Of a stretch of 64,000 bases of DNA, positions 445 to 61,255 are shown in pieces. The DNA lies in the NCBI GenBank assembly GCA_024280155.1, contig JAJRQQ010000061.1:1-64000 (forward strand), read 5' to 3'. How positions within the stretch are numbered: the first letter of the stretch is position 1; each line of letters starts with the position of its first letter. Below the pieces are notes generated by a model. It worked only from the letters and a program-made list of their open reading frames with translations, was not told the DNA's origin and did not search any database. This DNA comes from Bacteroidota bacterium (GTDB taxonomy: Bacteria; Bacteroidota; Bacteroidia; Flavobacteriales_D; Crocinitomicaceae). The position numbers were made by a program, and so were the translations under genes.

Positions 445-798
445 TTAAGCTTCAGTTTTAACTGATTTTGCTCCTAGTCTTTTTCTGCGTGATTCAGCAT
501 ATTTAATGTGATCAGCATCCATTCTAACAGTTAGAAAACGCATAACACGTTCATCTCTTTTAAATGCAACCTCTAATTCAGCAATAGCTTCACCTGGAGA
601 TTGAAATTGTGTTAGAAAGTAAAATCCTGTAGATTTTTTTTGAATAGGGTAAGCTAATTTTTTTAGACCCCAACTTTCAGAGTGTTGTACTTTTCCACCC
701 AACGAACCGATTTGTTCTTCGAATTTCTGTACTGCTTCCTTTGCCTGCTCTTCAGACAAAACGGGAGTTAGAATGAAAACAGTTTCATAAGAATTCAT
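445..798 (-). CDS. rpsF: 30S ribosomal protein S6
   Basis: Small-subunit protein that pairs with S18 in the central domain of 16S rRNA. It starts [18 protein letters not shown] and contains the [21 protein letters not shown] segment and the [14 protein letters not shown] strand typical of S6. It is 117 residues long, with a short basic tail of the kind common in Bacteroidetes. It is the first gene of the rpsF-rpsR-rplI operon, and a good Bacteroidetes-type promoter lies about 57 nt upstream. Confidence 0.97.
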
Positions 799-960: not shown

Positions 961-1124
961 CTCTAACAATCTAAAACTCTATAACTCTATAGCTCTATAG
1001 CTCTATAGCTCTAATACTCTAACAATCTAAAGCTCTAGCACTCTAGCTACTCTAAAGCTCTAGCACTCTAGCACTCTAAAGCTCTAGCCCTCTAACACTC
1101 TAAAGTTCTAGCCCCGCCCCTCTA
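961..1124 (-). repeat. 8-nt-period NNNTAGAG repeat array at the 3' end of the MltF-like gene
   Basis: Read on the minus strand from 1124, about 20 imperfect 8-nt units of the form NNNTAGAG follow one another (TTTAGAG, GCTAGAG, CTATAGAG and so on). The first TAGAG is the TAG stop codon of the upstream gene (1124-1122). The array fills most of the 323-nt gap to rpsF. Related arrays begin at the stop codons at 50921 and 60103. There is no coding potential and no spacer/repeat alternation of the CRISPR kind. Confidence 0.8.
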
Positions 1125-2582
1125 CTCAAAAAAATCACTATAATGCTCATGTCTTTCAAAAATTTGTCGAACATAATGATAGGGTTCAATTCCTCTAACA
1201 TGACCATAACGAACAACTTTATTGTTGAAATAACGACTGTAAGTCAGTGAAAGAATCATTTTTTCAACATTATCATCCCAAACGTCTTTGTCTAAGTTGA
1301 GTACTTCTGCTAATCTTCTTGCATCGGCGACATGACCAGGACCACAGTTATAGGAAGCAATTGTAAACTTAATTCGTTGAATAGAATCGGGAACGTCATC
1401 GTATTGTTTCCAGATATTATGTAGATACTTCGTTCCAGCATGGAGACTTTGCGCTGGGTCGTGCGGGTTTTTTAAACCTAATTCACGACATGTTGCTGGC
1501 ATAATCTGCATCAATCCACCTGCGCCAACCCAAGATTTTGCATTAGGGTCGAAACGTGACTCTTGATAAACCAATGATGCCACTAGACGCCAATCCCAAT
1601 GAATTCTCTTCGCATTTTTCTTAATGAGGTCATCGTATGGGCTTAATTTGTTGGATTCTAAACTATAGAAGTCACTTTTTACACGTTTTTTATAGTTACG
1701 TGGGCTTTTGAAATATTTATTGTAAATCACGAAATAATCAACTTCTTTCTTGAACTTTTTTAGCCATTGATTTAATCTTTTATTCAGCTTTGGAGACGAA
1801 AAACGCGTTGCCCAAGCATTTCGAATTGAAAAACTTATCGGTACAGATATATCGATGTCTGGATTGTAGTTGGCAGCTACTTTTGCAATCTCATCATCAG
1901 CAACAGTGTATTTTACTTTTCCGTCAATCACCATTTGAATGATTTCATCGGTACTGTATTCTCCACTTATTGTATCAATTAATACATCTCCGCCAACTTC
2001 TTCAGAAAGGTTGTTTATTCTTGTCATGTACGCAGTATTTGCACGGATACTAACTTTTTTGCCAATCAACTCAATTGGGTCATTGATTAAATGACGTTCT
2101 ACGTTATGACGACTTATTTTTCGCCAGTTTTCTGGTTTTTTCTGTACAAGCACCTGGTGTGTTAATGAAACGTATTCTGAAAAATTAACGTAATTCTCTC
2201 GTTCTTTTGTTATCGTTAACGCAAAAGCCATTAAATCAACAGTGCCATCATTGAGCTGAGTGATGATACTATCGATGTTCTTTTCCACAACGATTTCTAG
2301 TTCAACACCTAAGTCTTTTGCAAAACGTTCCAGCAACTCATACTCAAATCCCATTTCTTGTCCTTTGTATAAGAAATAAGATGTACTACTATAGACCATT
2401 GATGCTCGAAGTTTACCTTCTTTTAAAATGTCATCTAAATCATGGTTAACATCAGGTAGATGGATGTTTTCTTTTTTTGTATGGTTTGGCTCTTCGATGG
2501 TTAAATCATTTTCTCCTACATTCTCACTAGAACATGAAAAAAGAAAAGAAATTAGAATAAGAAGTATATAAAATTTTGACAT
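1122..2582 (-). CDS. MltF-like membrane-bound lytic murein transglycosylase (SBP_bac_3 + SLT)
   Basis: Periplasmic lipoprotein predicted to cleave peptidoglycan between MurNAc and GlcNAc. The N-terminus (MSKFYILLILISFLFSC) is a lipoprotein signal with the lipobox Cys at residue 17. Residues about 50-280 are an amino-acid-binding-protein-like domain (FEYELLERFAKDLGVELEIV, then DLMAFALTITKERENYVNFS). Residues about 315-480 are an SLT goose-lysozyme-like domain with the catalytic glutamate in LVYQESRFDPNAKS, followed by GAGGLMQIMPAT and the ASYNCGPGHV motif. The order and the 486-residue length match MltF. The stop codon TAG is the first unit of the NNNTAGAG repeat array. Confidence 0.9.
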   Translation of the reverse strand: MSKFYILLILISFLFSCSSENVGENDLTIEEPNHTKKENIHLPDVNHDLDDILKEGKLRASMVYSSTSYFLYKGQEMGFEYELLERFAKDLGVELEIVVEKNIDSIITQLNDGTVDLMAFALTITKERENYVNFSEYVSLTHQVLVQKKPENWRKISRHNVERHLINDPIELIGKKVSIRANTAYMTRINNLSEEVGGDVLIDTISGEYSTDEIIQMVIDGKVKYTVADDEIAKVAANYNPDIDISVPISFSIRNAWATRFSSPKLNKRLNQWLKKFKKEVDYFVIYNKYFKSPRNYKKRVKSDFYSLESNKLSPYDDLIKKNAKRIHWDWRLVASLVYQESRFDPNAKSWVGAGGLMQIMPATCRELGLKNPHDPAQSLHAGTKYLHNIWKQYDDVPDSIQRIKFTIASYNCGPGHVADARRLAEVLNLDKDVWDDNVEKMILSLTYSRYFNNKVVRYGHVRGIEPYHYVRQIFERHEHYSDFFE

Positions 2583-31515: not shown

Positions 31516-34500
31516 ATGGGGAAACTTGTTTCTAAAATTGTGCAATTCTTTAACAAGAATCTTTTAGCATATTTGTCTGTTCTTATTGCTTTACTTTTAT
31601 TTATTTCATACGGAGTAAGTCGATTGAAATTGGATGAGAATATCTATTCAATTTTCCCGAAAGGGGAGGAGTTTTCCGATTTTAATCGTGTTATACAAGA
31701 TAATAACCTCAATAAGCAAATTGTTTTTTCTATAGATTCAGAAAATGAGTTTTTGCACGAAACATTGGACTCAATTTCAAAGAAACTGATTCTATCTTCA
31801 GATGGATTAATGACTGGTTTTGTTGTTTTTAGAGAGGATGACCAACAAAAAGTACTGGATTATTTCTATCAATCTTTACCTGCATTATTGACAGATAAAG
31901 ATTATGTTTCCATTAATGGGAAATTGGATGAGGATTCTATAAAACATTCTCTAAAGCTTGTTTATGAGAAAATGACTTCTCCGAATGCACTTTTTCTCCG
32001 TAAGATATTTGCAAAAGATCCTTTGGGATTAGCTTGGGGGAAGTTGCAAGAAATTAAGCCTCAATCAGATTCTTTGGCTTTTTCAGTAGAAGATGGGATA
32101 TTACATTCTGTCGATAATAAAAGAGCTTTGTTTACTGCTGTATTGAATTTTGATGTTTCTGATAATGCAAAGAATGAAGAACTGAATTTAAAATTAGAAG
32201 CATTTAAAAAAGTTCTTAATGCAGAAAACCCAGCGTTAAATTTCGATTATTTTGGAACTTTCCAAATTGCGTATGAGAATTCTAGGCAAGTGAAAGAGGA
32301 TACATCTTTGACGTTGATAATAAGCCTTGGATTAATTTTATTGCTACTCATTTTCTATTACCGAAGTTTCATTACCCCTTTGTTTTTTATTCTCCCAGCA
32401 CTCTTTTCTGGATTGTTGGGTTTAGCAATGGTTGGTTTTATTCAACCAGAGATATCTGCAATTTCAATTGCAACATCTGCTGTTCTAATGGGGATAGTAC
32501 TCGATTATTCTTTCCATTGCTTTACGCACTATAACCATTCAAAAGATGTTGTTCAGACGATAAAAGAGTTGTCTGTACCCATGTTGATTGGGTCATTTAC
32601 AACTGTTGCAGCATTTGCAGCATTGATTTTTACCGATTCTGTTGTGTTGCAAAATTTTGGATTAATAGCATTGTGTACACTTTCTGCTGCTGCTTTTTTT
32701 ACCCTGTTATTGTTGCCTACTTTTTTGACAGTTGTAGGTTATAAACCAAAAGGAGAACGAGTCAAAAAAGGGAAGTTTAATATGCCGAAGTGGGTGTTAA
32801 GGGTTTCTATTTATTTGATTTTAGCGTTGACAATCTTCTTCGCTTGGAATTCAAATTCATTTCGTTTTGATTCTGATTTGAATAACTTAAGTTATCATCC
32901 CAAGTCTTTGAAGGAGAAGGAGGAGGTTTTTACGGGGATAAATCCTGAGTTTGAAAAGAAATTACATTTATTCGTTACTGGTGAAACAAGGCAAGACGCA
33001 GAAGCAAAGAATTATAAATTATTCAATCAACTTCTAGCATACAAAGCTGAGAACGGTTTGGAAGAACTTTTATCTATAGCACCATACTCTATACCGAAAG
33101 AAATTAAAATAGAGAAGAATAAGCAATGGCTTTCGTTCTGGTCTGGTAGAATGGACAATGTTAAGTCTATGATAGATAAAGAATCGAATGAACTGGGTTT
33201 AACATCGACTGCTTTTCAACCGTTTTACCAATGGATAACTATTGGTGATGAAATCTATCCAAGAAATGAAGAATTGAAACTTCAATCGAGTATTGGCTTA
33301 AATAAATTAGTTTATTCTTCTTCGGATGGATGGAGTATTGTGACGAGTGTTGTGCTTCGAAAAGAAGACATAACCAAATTTAAAACGATAATTGGAGAGA
33401 ATGAAGATGTGTTTATTCTTGACATTGCAGAAATGGCGAATACATTAATGGTTTCTGTTCAGAATGATTTTAATTATTTGTTAATTTTCTCATCACTCCT
33501 TGTTTTTCTTTCACTGCTGTTGATATACGGTAGAATAGAATTGGCTCTTTTTGCATTCTTACCAATGGTAATCAGTTGGGTGTGGATTTTAGGAATTTGC
33601 TCCTTGTTTGATATTGAATTTAACTTTGTCAATATCATTGTAGCTACTTTCATTTTTGGATTAGGCGATGACTTTAGTATTTTCGTAACAGATGGTTTAT
33701 TACAAAAATATAAGACCAATTCAAACGTATTGAAATCGTTTAAATCTGCGATAATTCTTTCTGGAATAACAACCATTATTGGTACTGGAGTTCTTTATTT
33801 TTCACAACATCCCGCCATTCATTCGATAGCGGTTATTAGTGTGGTTGGAATTGGTTGCATTATGTTAGTGACATTGATTGTTCAGCCTTTTGTGTTCAAA
33901 TTATTTATTACCAAGAGAACAGATAAGAAAAGGACACCAGCAACTTTCTTTGGACTTATCTACAGTTTTATATTGTTTTCGTATTTCTTCTTCGGGAGTA
34001 TCTTGTTGACTCTTTTCTTGCCTCTTTTGATTATTTTGCCGATAAAAAAAGAAGCGAAGCGAAGCTTTTTAAACTACACCCTCTCTAAATTAGCAAAATC
34101 AACCATTTATTTGGGTGTTCATATCAAGAAGGAGTTTATCAATGCAGAACGATTAGATTTCTCAAAACCTTCGATTATTGTTGCGAATCATTCTTCGTTT
34201 TTAGACATTCTTTTGATGATAATGCTGAATCCAAAGGTGATTATAATGGTAAAGAAATGGGTGTATAATTCACCTGTTTTTGGTCTCTTCGTACGTTACG
34301 CAGGATATCCTTTTATTGAAGAAGGAACAGAATATCATTTGGATTTTTTAAAGGATAGAATTGATAATGGATACTCTATCATGATTTTCCCAGAAGGGAC
34401 TCGAAGTGAAGATGGTGAGATAAAACGATTTCACAAGGGGAGCTTTTTTCTTGCACAAGAATTGGGAATTGATATTCAACCAATATTAATTGTCGGAGCA

Positions 34501-35325
34501 TCTTATGTTAATCCAAAAAATGATTTTATTATAAAAAGTGGAACACTTTCGCTTTGTGTTTTAGAAAGAATTAAGGTGGGAGATGAGATGTTTCAGCAAA
34601 GATTTGGTTTATTGACGAAATCGGTTCAATCTATCATGCGTTCAGAAATGATTGCCATGAAATCTAAAATAGAAGATGCTCGTTATTTAAAAAATCGTGT
34701 GCAATACAATTATTTGTATAAAGGACCTACTTTAGAATGGTATGTTAGAATTAAATGGAGGTTCGAAGAAAAGAATTATGACTTTTATAATTCTTTAATC
34801 GAGGATCGAATTAATATTTATGACATCGGTTGTGGTTTGGGCTATTTGAGTTATTTCTTGCATTATAAAAATCCAAATCGAAATATTCTAGGAATTGATT
34901 ATGATGAAGACAAAATAGATATTGCTCAAAATGGGTATGACAAAACGGATCAACTCAAATTTGAAGTGAATGATGTTAAAAATATTGAATTTAAAGATGC
35001 AGATGTAGTTTTCTATAATGATGTTTTACATTATTTATCCTTTGAAAATCAACGTATGGTTCTTAAAAAAACGGTAGATTCTTTAAATGAAAATGGTTTG
35101 ATAATTATTCGAGATGGAATCTCTGATTTGAAAGACCGTCATGAGATGACTCAAAAGACAGAAAAGTATTCTACTAAAATATTTGGATTTAATAAGGTAA
35201 CAGAACAATTGTCATTTTTTTCTTCTAAAGATATTTATAATTTCGCAGAGGAACATAACCCTAGTTGTGAAATGATTGAACAAACAAAAAAGACTTCTAA
35301 CGTATTATTCATTCTTCGAAAATGA
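31516..35325 (+). CDS. MMPL/RND exporter fused to PlsC acyltransferase and methyltransferase
   Basis: 1269-residue three-part protein. Residues 1 to about 815 are an MMPL-type exporter with two six-helix sets (MGIVLDYSFHCFTHYNH and FGLGDDFSIFVTDGL carry the charged residues of helix 4) and two periplasmic loops. Residues about 860-1050 are a PlsC acyltransferase with NHSSFLDI (HX4D) and FPEGTRSEDGEIKRFHKGSF. Residues about 1090-1269 are a class I SAM methyltransferase (IYDIGCGLGYLSYFLHY, GIDYDEDKI). I infer export coupled to acylation and methylation of the pigment. The next gene starts 4 nt later. Confidence 0.85.
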   Translation: MGKLVSKIVQFFNKNLLAYLSVLIALLLFISYGVSRLKLDENIYSIFPKGEEFSDFNRVIQDNNLNKQIVFSIDSENEFLHETLDSISKKLILSSDGLMTGFVVFREDDQQKVLDYFYQSLPALLTDKDYVSINGKLDEDSIKHSLKLVYEKMTSPNALFLRKIFAKDPLGLAWGKLQEIKPQSDSLAFSVEDGILHSVDNKRALFTAVLNFDVSDNAKNEELNLKLEAFKKVLNAENPALNFDYFGTFQIAYENSRQVKEDTSLTLIISLGLILLLLIFYYRSFITPLFFILPALFSGLLGLAMVGFIQPEISAISIATSAVLMGIVLDYSFHCFTHYNHSKDVVQTIKELSVPMLIGSFTTVAAFAALIFTDSVVLQNFGLIALCTLSAAAFFTLLLLPTFLTVVGYKPKGERVKKGKFNMPKWVLRVSIYLILALTIFFAWNSNSFRFDSDLNNLSYHPKSLKEKEEVFTGINPEFEKKLHLFVTGETRQDAEAKNYKLFNQLLAYKAENGLEELLSIAPYSIPKEIKIEKNKQWLSFWSGRMDNVKSMIDKESNELGLTSTAFQPFYQWITIGDEIYPRNEELKLQSSIGLNKLVYSSSDGWSIVTSVVLRKEDITKFKTIIGENEDVFILDIAEMANTLMVSVQNDFNYLLIFSSLLVFLSLLLIYGRIELALFAFLPMVISWVWILGICSLFDIEFNFVNIIVATFIFGLGDDFSIFVTDGLLQKYKTNSNVLKSFKSAIILSGITTIIGTGVLYFSQHPAIHSIAVISVVGIGCIMLVTLIVQPFVFKLFITKRTDKKRTPATFFGLIYSFILFSYFFFGSILLTLFLPLLIILPIKKEAKRSFLNYTLSKLAKSTIYLGVHIKKEFINAERLDFSKPSIIVANHSSFLDILLMIMLNPKVIIMVKKWVYNSPVFGLFVRYAGYPFIEEGTEYHLDFLKDRIDNGYSIMIFPEGTRSEDGEIKRFHKGSFFLAQELGIDIQPILIVGASYVNPKNDFIIKSGTLSLCVLERIKVGDEMFQQRFGLLTKSVQSIMRSEMIAMKSKIEDARYLKNRVQYNYLYKGPTLEWYVRIKWRFEEKNYDFYNSLIEDRINIYDIGCGLGYLSYFLHYKNPNRNILGIDYDEDKIDIAQNGYDKTDQLKFEVNDVKNIEFKDADVVFYNDVLHYLSFENQRMVLKKTVDSLNENGLIIIRDGISDLKDRHEMTQKTEKYSTKIFGFNKVTEQLSFFSSKDIYNFAEEHNPSCEMIEQTKKTSNVLFILRK

Positions 35326-42685: not shown

Positions 42686-44491
<1,806 letters not shown>

Positions 44492-50898: not shown

Positions 50899-50921
50899 AC
50901 CTCTAAAGTTCTACCCCTCTA
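50899..50921 (-). repeat. short NNNTAGAG array at the stop codon of the OmpA-family gene
   Basis: From the TAG stop (50921-50919) the minus strand reads TAGAGGGG, TAGAACTT, TAGAGG. The TAGAACTTTAGAG segment also occurs at the same place in the array at 961-1124. Only about three units are present. Confidence 0.65.
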
Positions 50922-51341
50922 CCGCCTAATTATAAAATCAACTCTTCTATTCTTGGCAGTATCTTCATCTGTTTTTTCAGGGAATGCTAAAGGAAATTGA
51001 TCATCTTCCCCCACATAACACATCCTCTCTTTTGGTACTCCCATTTTATAGAGCAGCTTGTAGATGTTTTTTGCTCTACGTTTACTTGTTCTGTAACTTG
51101 GACCACAGCAGACGTGCCCTCTTATTTTCACTGTCCACGTTGGGTTTTTTTCTAAAATTCCAACCAAATAATCGATAACATATTGATAGCTAACATCTGG
51201 ATGAACGCTTTTTCCAGTATATTTTATATCGTATTCGTAAATAAATTCATTTGAATCCAATGGAGGGAAACCCTGTTGATTATTTTGAGAAAAGGAGAAA
51301 TGAGATAAAAAGAAAAAAATGAAAATCAAATAGAATTTCAT
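50919..51341 (-). CDS. OmpA-domain periplasmic protein
   Basis: 140 residues with a signal peptide (MKFYLIFIFFFLSHFSFSQ). The body is a single OmpA/MotB-like domain: the first strand IKYTGKSVHPDVSYQYV, then WTVKIRGHVCCGPSYRTSKRRAKNIYKLLYKMGVPKERM, and a final NRRVDFIIRR. It can bind peptidoglycan if the usual Asp and Arg are kept. The CCGP insert replaces the common HTD motif, so binding is not certain. The TAG stop codon is part of a repeat array. Confidence 0.78.
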   Translation of the reverse strand: MKFYLIFIFFFLSHFSFSQNNQQGFPPLDSNEFIYEYDIKYTGKSVHPDVSYQYVIDYLVGILEKNPTWTVKIRGHVCCGPSYRTSKRRAKNIYKLLYKMGVPKERMCYVGEDDQFPLAFPEKTDEDTAKNRRVDFIIRR

Positions 51342-57957: not shown

Positions 57958-60105
57958 ATGAAAGATTTTTTACTAATCACTTTGTTTTTTATTTCATTCA
58001 GTTCTGTGGCACAAATGAAACAGCGTGTTGCCGATGATTTTTATGCGAAAGAAGAATATGCTAAATGCGTAGAAATGTATGATGAGTTGGTAGAGAAAGC
58101 CATTTCAGGTCATAAAAAAGGGAAAACAGAGAACATCAGGAAAGCGGCAGAGTCTCATTTTCATTTGTTTCAAATGGAAGAGGCAATTGTACATTATAAG
58201 CAACTTTATACTCGAGGCGAATTAACTGAACACGATAGAATGCATTTTATTGACGCGTTGAGATTCTCTGAAGAATATGACTTTTGTACAAAAATTGCTA
58301 GAGAAAGTGCGCAATCATTTCCAGAGAATACATTCTTTGCTAGATTCGTCGCTAATGAGAATAACTTTTACAAACTTTTTTCGGATTCTTCATTTTATAA
58401 AGTTACTGAGGCTTCAATCAACTCAGGAAAAGGGGATTTTAGTCCAGCTTTTTACGGTCATTCGTTGGTTTTTTCTTCAAAATCAAAAAATGCAGGGTTT
58501 TTAACACAGAAATATGGTTGGGATGATGCTTACTATTTGAACATTATGCAATCAAATTTTGAGGAAGATTCAGTTCTGCAAACTCCTAAGATGTTAAAAA
58601 ATCATTTTGTTTCTAAAGCACACGATGGACCTGTAAGTTTCAATGAGAACAATACAGAAATGATTATTACGCAGAACACATTAGGAAAGAAAAAAGGAAA
58701 AGAAGTGATTGTTCTTTCGTTGTATTTTTCTTATTTCAAAGATGGGGAATGGGGAGAATTGATACCTTTTCCTTACAATAATGAAAAGTATAATGTTGGG
58801 CACGGTGTGTTGTCGCACGATGGAACTAAATTGTATTTCGTTTCGGATATGCCCGGAGGTTATGGTGAAACGGATATTTATGTTTCGCGTAGAATGCATG
58901 GTGCGTGGTCAGAACCTGAGAATTTAGGGACAATGATTAATACCGAGCGCAAAGAAATGTGCCCTTTTGTCGAAGAAGGAAAGTTGTATTTTGCCTCAAA
59001 CGGTCACTTTGGTTTAGGTGGATTGGATATTTTTGAAACAAGTTTGGAAAGTAATTCTACACCGAAAAACATCGGTTACCCTGTGAATACTTCTAAAGAT
59101 GATTTTGGGTTGATTTTCGATCATTCTGGTAGATTAGGGTTTCTTTCGAGCAATCGTGGAGACCATATCGATAGAATTTACCATGTGGTTAAACGCAAAG
59201 CAAATATTCAATTGATTGTCAATGTTTTTGAGAAATACAAAGAATTAGAATTTGTCCCTGAACAACCTGTAACCATTAAAAACATGGTGACAAATGAAGA
59301 ATTGGTACTGTTGACAGATTCTTTGGGCGTTTTGAACACCTCGATTGATGCAAATACAGAATACAGAATTTATACTTCAAAGGAAGAATTTGTTTTGGTA
59401 AAAGAAGCGTCTGTACAAACAGAACAAGTGAGAACGGACACTACTTTTGTGCGAGAATTGATTTTAAAACCAACGACCATTCAGATTCACATTCGTGTAG
59501 TTGAAAAAGGAACTGGTAAAATCATTCCGTTTGCTACAACAACGATTACCGATTATGGCTCACAAACAGATACCACTTTAACAACCGATGAAAATGGAAT
59601 GGTGACGATTGTTGTAGATCGAAATAAAACACTTTGGGCACACGGTTCTAAAAAAGGATTTATTGATGCAGATATTTCTTTCAATACGGCCAATGAAAAT
59701 GACAAGGTTTTTGATGTTGAATTAGCATTATCACCAATCCGAAAAGGGGAGACATTTAAATTGGAGAATATCTTTTACGATTTGAATAAATCAACATTAC
59801 GAGAAGAAAGTAAGGCTTCGTTGGATAAGTTAGCACAATTTTTATTAGACAATGATTTGAAAATAGAATTGAGTGCGCATACCGATTCCCGTGGAAGTAG
59901 TGCGTACAATAAACGTTTGTCTCAAGCAAGAGCTCAAAGTTGTGTTGATTATCTACTTTCCAAAGGTGTAGCCAAGAAAAATATTCGAGCAAAAGGTTAT
60001 GGAGAAACTCGTTTGGTCAACCGATGTCGTAATGGCGTGAAGTGTTCGGAAGAAGAGCATCAGGAGAATCGAAGAACTGAAGTGAAAATTTTGGAAGTGA
60101 ATTAG
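57958..60105 (+). CDS. PorE-like TPR/PD40/OmpA envelope protein
   Basis: 715 residues with a signal peptide (MKDFLLITLFFISFSSVAQ). The order is: TPR-like helices (about 25-150); a PD40 beta-propeller (about 150-400) with repeats such as KLYFVSDMPGGYGETDIYVSRR and KLYFASNGHFGLGGLDIFET; a carboxypeptidase-regulatory-like domain (about 500-585); and a C-terminal OmpA domain (LSAHTDSRGSSAYNKRLSQARAQSCVDYLLSKG) that can bind peptidoglycan. PorE links the T9SS to the cell wall with this architecture. It follows PorP/SprF by 2 nt. The stop TAG starts a repeat array. Confidence 0.85.
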   Translation: MKDFLLITLFFISFSSVAQMKQRVADDFYAKEEYAKCVEMYDELVEKAISGHKKGKTENIRKAAESHFHLFQMEEAIVHYKQLYTRGELTEHDRMHFIDALRFSEEYDFCTKIARESAQSFPENTFFARFVANENNFYKLFSDSSFYKVTEASINSGKGDFSPAFYGHSLVFSSKSKNAGFLTQKYGWDDAYYLNIMQSNFEEDSVLQTPKMLKNHFVSKAHDGPVSFNENNTEMIITQNTLGKKKGKEVIVLSLYFSYFKDGEWGELIPFPYNNEKYNVGHGVLSHDGTKLYFVSDMPGGYGETDIYVSRRMHGAWSEPENLGTMINTERKEMCPFVEEGKLYFASNGHFGLGGLDIFETSLESNSTPKNIGYPVNTSKDDFGLIFDHSGRLGFLSSNRGDHIDRIYHVVKRKANIQLIVNVFEKYKELEFVPEQPVTIKNMVTNEELVLLTDSLGVLNTSIDANTEYRIYTSKEEFVLVKEASVQTEQVRTDTTFVRELILKPTTIQIHIRVVEKGTGKIIPFATTTITDYGSQTDTTLTTDENGMVTIVVDRNKTLWAHGSKKGFIDADISFNTANENDKVFDVELALSPIRKGETFKLENIFYDLNKSTLREESKASLDKLAQFLLDNDLKIELSAHTDSRGSSAYNKRLSQARAQSCVDYLLSKGVAKKNIRAKGYGETRLVNRCRNGVKCSEEEHQENRRTEVKILEVN

Positions 60106-60178
60106 ACTATTAGAGCTTTAGAGGGTTAGAGTGTTAGAGCTATAGAGCATTAGAGTGTTAGATTATTAGAGCTTTAGA
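60103..60178 (+). repeat. NNNTAGAG repeat array at the stop codon of the PorE-like gene
   Basis: From the stop codon TAG (60103-60105) about nine 8-nt units follow (ATTAGAG, CTTTAGAG, GGTTAGAG, TGTTAGAG, CTATAGAG and so on). Unit, phase and orientation relative to the upstream gene match the array at 961-1124. Confidence 0.8.
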
Positions 60179-60203
60179 TTTTTTGTAGGTTATATTTTAT
60201 AAG

Positions 60204-60233
60204 TTGCCTTCTCGACTTCTTTCCTTATATTTG
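60204..60233 (+). promoter_or_regulatory. promoter for the glycosylasparaginase gene
   Basis: TTG (60204-60206), a 19-nt spacer and TATATTTG (60226-60233) fit the Bacteroidetes consensus exactly. The start near 60240 leaves about 17 nt before the ATG at 60257. Confidence 0.7.
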
Positions 60234-60256
60234 TCTGTAAACAAGATAAAACGAAC

Positions 60257-61255
60257 ATGGGGAATTTAAAACGGAGAACATTTTTTAAACTAGGTCTTGC
60301 TAGTGCTGCGCTTGCCGTTTTTAAACCAAGTAGAGCTAGTCAGTTGATAGAAGATTCAACTCGTGTTACCCCACCAAAACCTGTGGTGATTTCAACTTGG
60401 AAACATGGTCTTGCAGCGAATGAAAACGCATGGAAAGTTTTACAAGCTGGTGGGAAAGCCATTGATGCTGTCGAAAAAGGAGTGAGAACTACCGAAGCAG
60501 ATATGAGTAATCGTTCTGTTGGAATTGGAGGACGTCCGGATAGATATGGGCATGTAACTCTAGACGCTTGTATCATGGATGAAAAATCTAAATGTGGAGC
60601 TGTTGCTTATCTCGAAGGTTTTATGCATCCGATTACGATTGCGAGAACTGTGATGGAGAAAACGCCTCACGTTATGCTTGCTGGAGATGGTGCAGCAGAT
60701 TTCGCACTCGATTATGGCTTTAAAAAGGTGAAATCTCCATTGAAAGAAGTTAAAAAAGAATGGAAAGAATGGAAGAAAGCCCATACAGAAAAATTTGACA
60801 AACCTGAAATTAACAGTGAGAATCACGATACCATTGGCATGTTAGCAATTGATGCTGATGGAAATTTAAGTGGTGCATGTACAACGAGTGGTTGGGGGTA
60901 TAAATTACCCGGTAGAATTGGGGATTCTCCGATTATTGGGGCAGGTTTATTTGTGGATAATGAAATAGGGGCAGCTTGTGCAACAGGATTAGGAGAGGCT
61001 GTAATTCGTATTGCAGGTTCGCACACAGTCGTTGAATTGATGAGAAATGGTCATTCTCCAGAAGATGCTTGCAGGTTAGCTGTAGAAAGAATCATTGCAA
61101 AGCATGATGACTTGTCAGGATTGCAAGTCGGCTTTCTTGCTTTGAATAAAAATGGTGAATATGGAGGTTATTCCGTCTATAATGGCTTTAATTTTGCATT
61201 GACCACTCCAAATCAAAACGAACTCATTGATGCAAAGTCGAATCGCAATTGGTAA
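60257..61255 (+). CDS. N4-(beta-N-acetylglucosaminyl)-L-asparaginase (glycosylasparaginase)
   Basis: 332-residue Ntn-hydrolase that splits the GlcNAc-Asn bond of N-linked glycans after self-cleavage. The nucleophile is T192 in NHDTIGMLAIDADG, with GACTTSGWGYKLPGRIGDSPIIGAGLFVDN completing the family pattern. The N-terminus has a twin-arginine-like signal (KRRTFFKLGLASAALAVF), so the enzyme is probably exported folded. The end overlaps the beta-mannosidase gene by 26 nt, so the two are translationally linked. Confidence 0.9.
   Translation: MGNLKRRTFFKLGLASAALAVFKPSRASQLIEDSTRVTPPKPVVISTWKHGLAANENAWKVLQAGGKAIDAVEKGVRTTEADMSNRSVGIGGRPDRYGHVTLDACIMDEKSKCGAVAYLEGFMHPITIARTVMEKTPHVMLAGDGAADFALDYGFKKVKSPLKEVKKEWKEWKKAHTEKFDKPEINSENHDTIGMLAIDADGNLSGACTTSGWGYKLPGRIGDSPIIGAGLFVDNEIGAACATGLGEAVIRIAGSHTVVELMRNGHSPEDACRLAVERIIAKHDDLSGLQVGFLALNKNGEYGGYSVYNGFNFALTTPNQNELIDAKSNRNW

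Follow-up and report, generated by a model that had tools for sequence, protein, structure and literature searches.

In the window, the whole 64,000-nucleotide stretch of DNA analysed here, three genes end in a TAG that is also the first TAG of a short tandem repeat. Why does a repeat begin where a gene stops, and did it supply the stop? An initial annotation of the window had taken these repeats for a family of 3′-end elements with an 8-nt step, starting exactly at the stop codon and perhaps the origin of it.

Arrays in the window and elsewhere in the genome

The word TAGAGNNNTAGAG occurs 17 times in the window, as opposed to a mean of 0.04 and a maximum of 1 in 100 shuffled sequences, which excludes chance. 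All three arrays of the initial annotation lie at the positions and on the strands it gave, and in each the first TAG is the stop codon of the upstream gene. Array 1 (961–1124, minus strand) consists of about 20 units NNNTAGAG and begins at the stop TAG (1122–1124) of a gene for a 486-aa MltF-like lytic transglycosylase with SLT and SBP_bac_3 matches (1122–2582, minus strand); the gene for ribosomal protein S6 lies downstream (445–798, minus strand). Array 2 (50899–50921, minus strand) has three units only (TAGAGGGG TAGAACTT TAGAG) and begins at the stop codon of a gene for a 140-aa OmpA-like protein (50919–51341, minus strand). Array 3 (60103–60178, plus strand), with nine to ten units, begins at the stop codon of a gene for a 715-aa OmpA/PD40 protein (57958–60105, plus strand), and is followed by a T run and by the gene for an asparaginase-2 family protein (60257–61255, plus strand). 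These gene identities agree with those proposed earlier, with the MltF model match and the OmpA-like match (Pfam OmpA, E = 4.9e-5) both below the curated cut-offs. The segment TAGAACTTTAGAG, said to be common to two arrays, is located at 1098–1110 and 50901–50913.

The 8-nt step holds in part. Array 1 has a period of 8 (17.9 copies) and a higher-order period of 24 (6.3 copies), and in having tandem units of one length it resembles an ordinary microsatellite or octamer VNTR, but 14 nt instead of 8 separate its stop TAG from the next one, which puts that stop out of phase, and one unit is 9 nt long. Arrays 2 and 3 have stop TAGs that are in phase with their units. On the sense strand the arrays have a GC skew of 0.58–0.62, with a purine content of just 56–70%. 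Around arrays 1 and 3 (600–1300 and 59900–60400) there is no terminator-like site, that is, no GC-rich hairpin with a T run, and no Rfam model matches within the window at its gathering score. The three window arrays fold hardly better than shuffled sequences (z = −1.4, −0.2 and −0.8), and the array on contig C69 described below has z = −2.4. No inverted arm is seen beside the window arrays, and a palindrome or terminal inverted repeat, absent from them, is found only in some copies of the related genomes G006 and G012.

The window is part of contig C60 of the assembly G000 (2.86 Mb in 114 contigs, 89% complete). Three perfect units occur in this genome only on C60 (two arrays) and on the 3.2-kb contig C69. 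The looser pattern TAGANNNNTAGAG gives 51 matches as opposed to 13 for the reversed control, and eight of the arrays that it finds overlap the stop codon of a sense gene: the three in the window and five others, on C69, C26, C23, C17 and C92, which the whole-genome search proposed by the initial annotation has added. The stop is the first unit in five of the eight, the second in two (C17 and C23) and the third in one (C69), giving offsets of 0, 8 and 16 within the array; an exact start at the stop is thus true of the window and not general. A ninth array (C23:125034) begins 8 nt past the T of a stop TAG, in phase. The remaining matches to the looser pattern, several of them inside genes, we take to be mostly chance. 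Coincidence with stops exceeds what control words give: in a 464-kb sample of G000, which includes contigs with known arrays, 7 of 25 places with TAGA....TAGA are at sense stops, and seven control words of the same form have 0 to 1 each.

The other array genes of G000 presumably encode, judging from their sequences, an MscS-like channel, a DEAD-box helicase, a glycosyltransferase, a desaturase-like oxidoreductase and a peptidase. The envelope theme suggested by the three window genes does not extend to this mixed set, and a regulon of envelope genes is not upheld. G000 also has a profile match to the type IX secretion sorting domain (TIGR04131), which points to the Bacteroidota as the phylum of this uncultured bacterium.

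Unit sequence and the octamer family

Neighbouring units vary in one part only. Across array 3, the C69 array and part of array 1 (its first units and the 9-nt unit being left out), the core TAGA has 0 differences in 148 comparisons and the spacer NNN has 66 in 111, with identical spacers in just 3 of 37 neighbouring pairs. In the octamer arrays of the named genomes, neighbouring spacers are identical in 302 of 330 pairs. The arrays were recognised by their core, which makes some ascertainment unavoidable, yet the runs are continuous and a broken core would appear as a gap. An ordinary microsatellite has near-identical neighbours and variation at all positions; here, ordinary slippage is inadequate because the core never varies while the adjoining spacer nearly always does. 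The invariant core suggests that its sequence matters, either to the process that copies it or to a factor that binds it, and it is the best argument for a bound factor.

Within the genus, three perfect units are found in 2 of 34 genomes, G000 and G006, and the relaxed pattern TNGAGNNTTNGAG in three units has 208 matches in G006 as opposed to 11 reversed. Across the order, three units of TVGAGYDT occur in 4 of 395 genomes, all of the same genus (G006 with 155, G012 with 4, G018 with 4 and G005 with 1), and the reversed control has one match. The units of G006 read T V G A G Y D T: among 97 units from the first 20 stretches sampled, position 2 is A in 43, G in 45, C in 9 and T in 0, and position 7 is G in 28, T in 33, A in 35 and C in 1. 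C is likewise absent from position 7 of the G000 units (0 of 59), where the second base is nearly always A, giving TAGAGNNN against the consensus T-V-G-A-G-Y-D-T of the relatives. G000 itself has no match to the stricter pattern of three TVGAGYDT units, and it is assigned to the family by the core, period and position that it shares. The claim of a 3′-end family with an 8-nt step accordingly gains several loci in G000 and four related genomes (G006, G012, G018 and G005). In G012 and G018, 5 of 7 arrays examined begin between −3 and +12 nt from a gene end, one begins 19 nt away and one has no called gene upstream; arrays of G005 and G019 lie 409 and 84 nt from the upstream gene.

Other repeats share these intergenic regions. 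Several in G006 (L104, L108, L111, L116) also hold arrays of GTGTGGA, TTGAGTG, GTGATGA and TATAATG-like units, mostly of 7 nt. Past the arrays in L111, L447, L414 and L423 the 8-nt period seems, by eye, to continue with GAC in place of GAG (TTCGACT..TTGACT..), so that each of these arrays may form the opening half of some longer periodic element.

Gene ends and the origin of the stops

Position relative to genes was counted in 60 stretches of G006 (1.18 Mb, 1087 genes called by simple ORF callers), some of which, especially among the first 20, were picked for their closeness to array matches. This sample holds 50 arrays of three or more units, as opposed to 2 in the reversed sequence; of the 50, 3 fall within genes and 44 lie between two known neighbouring genes. 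When the upstream gene is on the same strand, the array start falls between −20 and +15 nt relative to the gene end in 23 of 28 cases (convergent regions, 14 of 16; co-directional regions, 9 of 12). The array start is within 15 nt of a gene border in 27 of the 44, compared with a mean of 8.6 and a maximum of 17 in 2000 trials of uniform placement, and the array 3′ end is that close in only 4 of 44. Stops beside sense arrays (n = 25) are TAG in 18 cases, TAA in 6 and TGA in 1, against a background of 237 TAG in 1043 (p = 2e-7). Six of these stops are inside the array and are TAG by construction; 12 of the 19 that come before it are TAG. Because these 19 precede the array, mechanics alone do not explain the link to gene ends. 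Of all 25 stops, only 8 share the phase of the array. In co-directional regions, 12 arrays are sense and 13 antisense. The upstream neighbour has its start, not its stop, on the array side in 16 of the 44 cases, and a start codon lies no more than 15 nt from the beginning of 4 of the 13 antisense arrays. Arrays of G006 are strongly tied to stops, then, but are found in other places too.

The exact coincidence with TAG is partly mechanical since 8 is not a multiple of 3, and a gene that enters an array stops within three units. An all-frame fail-safe stop device was considered as a general function and rejected, many units of G006 (TGGAG, TCGAG) being free of stops.

Did the arrays supply the stops? 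For the 715-aa gene, 12 of 12 listed close orthologues end at the same residue (TAA 6, TAG 4, TGA 2), and none has a TAGAG array in the 100 nt past the stop; those of G012, G018 and G030 have, by eye, a terminator-like hairpin directly behind the stop, and that of G006 has another repeat there. For the transglycosylase gene, 26 complete orthologues stop within about one residue of one another, again with no TAGAG array in the 100 nt past the stop. Since orthologues stop at the same place without an array, the stop position of both genes is, on this comparison, ancestral and the array came second. The initial annotation had looked to sister species for orthologues that stop elsewhere and lack an array; what is found, for two window genes, is orthologues that lack the array and yet stop at the same residue or within about one. 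As a source of the stop, the array is rejected for these two of the three window genes.

The claim that arrays supplied stop codons stands at C69. This contig is collinear with C73 of the same bin, the flanks being 85% and 80% identical, and 19 bp in C73 correspond to 130 bp in C69. The C73 protein ends HIVSDVRK* with TAA and has no array, whereas the C69 protein ends HIIKEGEPIEGRGLER* and its stop is the third unit of the array. Judged from this pair, the array has replaced the end of an MscS-like gene and supplies its stop, a case in which a repeat can rewrite both a protein C-terminus and a stop codon. At C23, the stop matches the position in the G018 orthologue and the last three codons are array sequence. 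The arrays are young: the collinear C73 lacks the C69 array, a recent gain or loss at one site, seen between near copies in this one collinear contig with flanks 80–85% identical. Two collinear copies of one region at about 80–85% identity are thus present in the bin, L066 (G000:C69) and L529 (G000:C73:3500-7634); a second strain or species is probably co-binned, and C69 or C73 may be foreign to the genome of the window.

Proposed growth behind stops, rival explanations and related repeats

The established observations are the core/spacer contrast, the family membership, a start that coincides with the stop or lies some 15 nt from it at most, sense orientation at stops, the TAG excess and the recent gain or loss at one site. 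We tentatively read the arrays, with slightly less than even confidence, as a degenerate intergenic satellite that grows away from the gene, out of the ribosome-free stretch past the stop, and with it as a young, fast-evolving and genus-restricted family of degenerate octamer tandem repeats. In this model, arrays would colonise the first nucleotides past stop codons, GAG being on the coding strand, in a stretch free of both ribosomes and coding constraint. The G-skewed nascent RNA past the stop would re-anneal to the template, and slippage or templated copying from other arrays would extend the repeat away from the gene in steps of 8 nt and sometimes 24 nt. Were growth to run into the coding end, the first in-frame TAG would turn into the stop, always within three units, and stops at offsets 0, 8 and 16 in array–gene overlaps would follow from this survivor effect. 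Growth by R-loop or slippage is the mechanism that we infer, and a host function is not required by the data.

Copying on ribosome-free, G-skewed RNA would account for the stop anchor, the sense orientation at stops and the youth of the arrays; it leaves the antisense arrays and the fixed core unexplained. Antisense arrays equal sense arrays in the co-directional regions of G006, which counts against a stop-anchored, transcription-coupled model, and neither the arrays on the start side nor the antisense arrays near start codons are predicted by it. Also counted against it are the small share of in-phase stops in G006, the purine content of 56–70%, the distant arrays of G005 and G019, and the viral contigs and Bacteroidota sample described below.

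A functional 3′-UTR element is an unlikely reading. A unit with a UAGAG core every 8 nt would bind an RNA-binding protein, for example a small single-RRM protein, or the array would replace a terminator, and copy number would tune 3′-end stability or translation of the upstream gene. The invariant core with its free spacer fits this, as does the mostly sense orientation of stop-touching arrays in G006 (23, as opposed to 4 with the 3′ end within 15 nt of a stop). A small RRM protein scores above the Pfam cut-off in each of G000 (C82:60972-61181), G006, G012 and G018, but also in G030, which has no match to the array patterns, and the Bacteroides RRM protein RbpB is reported to prefer AU-rich RNA (PMC11697453). 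The hairpins behind the G012, G018 and G030 orthologues of the 715-aa gene, where G000 has an array, and the lack of terminator-like sites near arrays 1 and 3 would suit a replaced terminator; across G006, however, exclusion of terminators by arrays is not significant (3 of 18 behind array genes versus 121 of 448 in the background, Fisher p = 0.42), and in Vibrio maerlii terminator-like hairpins sit beyond the array. The weak folding of the window arrays, the seemingly mixed functions of the array genes and the absence of arrays from most relatives likewise argue against a 3′-UTR function.

Rather unlikely is an ordinary neutral microsatellite, an octamer expanded by replication slippage whose coincidence with stops is a survivor effect, since the TAG in each unit closes every frame in 24 nt or less and repeats ahead of the stop are purged. 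The near balance of sense and antisense arrays where G006 genes are co-directional and the presence of all three offsets in G000 agree with this, and so does the spread of the repeat. A scan of a one-genome-per-species collection, which may omit G000, for four units of TAGAGNNN gives at least 118 places in many phyla, a Chryseobacterium being one of the carriers; 65 of the 80 examined are perfect octamers. Sense stops account for 19 of the 80, the ends of antisense genes for 2 and gene interiors for 5, with the other 54 lying elsewhere. In viral contigs (80 of 112 stretches examined), 8 of 82 places are sense and 7 antisense, and among the matches listed there the reversed control equals or outnumbers the array pattern. 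Against the microsatellite, arrays in G006 begin at gene ends even though most of the stops are outside the array and many units (TGGAG, TCGAG) lack a stop. Core and spacer variation are wholly unlike, which slippage with point mutation does not give. Among the 80 arrays, the five with mostly changing spacers are all at sense stops, compared with 14 of the 75 others, at a cut-off of 0.5 chosen after seeing the data; with any spacer change, the figures are 6 of 15 versus 13 of 65 without.

Whether growth behind stops extends beyond the genus is more doubtful still. We regard with some scepticism a general, recurrent process that would build up G-skewed octamers around a fixed UAGAG-like core from the site of ribosome release, the core being read by the copying machinery or by an RNA-binding protein. 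An apparently independent case is the isolate Vibrio maerlii G62, with the perfect octamer (TAGAGAGC)n of 5–17 units in five places (L122, L137, L177, L183, L194). At four of the five, no more than 6 nt separate the end of an open frame from the array start, and at three the array sits, by eye, between the gene end and a terminator-like hairpin. In a Bacteroidota sample, three units of TAGAG occur in 9 of 395 genomes, G000 included, and of 11 places examined outside G000, mostly near-perfect octamers, 2 are at sense stops, so that the stop link in other taxa is weaker than the scan of many phyla suggests. This sample and the viral contigs weaken the general case. A different degenerate octamer family, with the words ACGTAGAG, ATGTAGAA and ACGTAAAA and mostly transitions among its variants, is found in G756, from another family of the phylum (L646, L654, L660, L663); none of the four places seen is at a sense stop.

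Bacterial short intergenic repeats have often been noted and left unexplained. If the general process were real, translation termination, by leaving naked nascent RNA past the stop, would determine where bacterial repeats are born; a dependence of growth on transcription and on the point of ribosome exit would link termination to repeat birth, and a core that is a binding site would define a new class of multivalent 3′-UTR element. The fixed core with its free spacer, the start pinned behind many stops and the TAG excess there make these ideas testable together.

Very improbable is a mobile palindromic (REP- or MITE-like) element that inserts at gene borders with octamer arrays as its arms, antisense arrays being second arms: in some G006 and G012 regions, forward and inverted octamers do pair into hairpins that are nearly perfect (L120, z = −9.3; L419, z = −9.2; L117, z = −6.8), inverted partners of at least 8 nt lie downstream of 13 of 50 arrays and upstream of none, and antisense is as frequent as sense in co-directional regions, but pairing of such arms is no better within a locus (13 of 50) than between unrelated loci (203 of 736), which rejects locus-specific pairing in G006, copy lengths differ unit by unit, and the window arrays have no visible inverted arm. 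Of eight G006 and G012 regions folded, six exceed shuffled sequences in stability (z = −3.2 to −9.3, with an ordinary terminator contributing in one of them), and L110 and L113 do not. A mobile element should leave long words common to its copies; in G006, just two non-overlapping 14-mers are present in at least 8 of 615 intergenic regions. Rho loading is unlikely, the arrays being C-poor.

The initial annotation knew of no described element of this sort. No description of TAGAGNNN or TVGAGYDT arrays was found in the literature searched, and to that extent the remark stands for the sequence; the kind, short intergenic direct repeats, is described. Nearest are the TAACTGA heptamer direct repeats of Beggiatoaceae, Cyanobacteria and some Bacteroidetes (MacGregor 2015, PMC4679880). 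These are 7-nt intergenic direct repeats with many sets per genome, stop codons in the unit, a non-random position and orientation relative to genes and a patchy distribution, and they run mostly forward towards start codons, whereas the arrays here have a fixed core and a free spacer. The arrays are likewise intergenic and non-random in position, mostly behind stop codons rather than before start codons, and have a period of 8 (and 24) with the unit TAGAGNNN in place of a 7-nt TAACTGA.

The STRR heptanucleotides of cyanobacteria are similarly short-unit intergenic tandem repeats of some lineages, with units that, unlike those here, are 7 nt and perfect; they are not known to be anchored at stop codons. 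Archaeal Borg tandem repeats are also young, rapidly changing and of independent origin, and their first unit can sit in a gene end, but the units are perfect, 18–21 nt in the examples, and belong to extrachromosomal elements (PMC9879509). REP elements occur 0–15 nt behind stops, and those within 15 nt are reported to stall ribosomes and lower translation (PMC12306157); they are palindromes, whereas the direct repeats of the window are predicted to fold only weakly. The ribosome termination structure is similarly a feature immediately downstream of the stop, but is defined by a stable structure that the window arrays do not display (PMC7518266).

Elsewhere in the window, the gene for the Rho termination factor (42686–44491, minus strand) encodes 601 aa, compared with 413 positions in the family model, and contains a 107-bp TTG trinucleotide repeat (43839–43945). 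A 1269-aa protein (31516–35325, plus strand) joins matches to an RND/MMPL-type transporter, an acyltransferase and a methyltransferase, all below the curated cut-offs.
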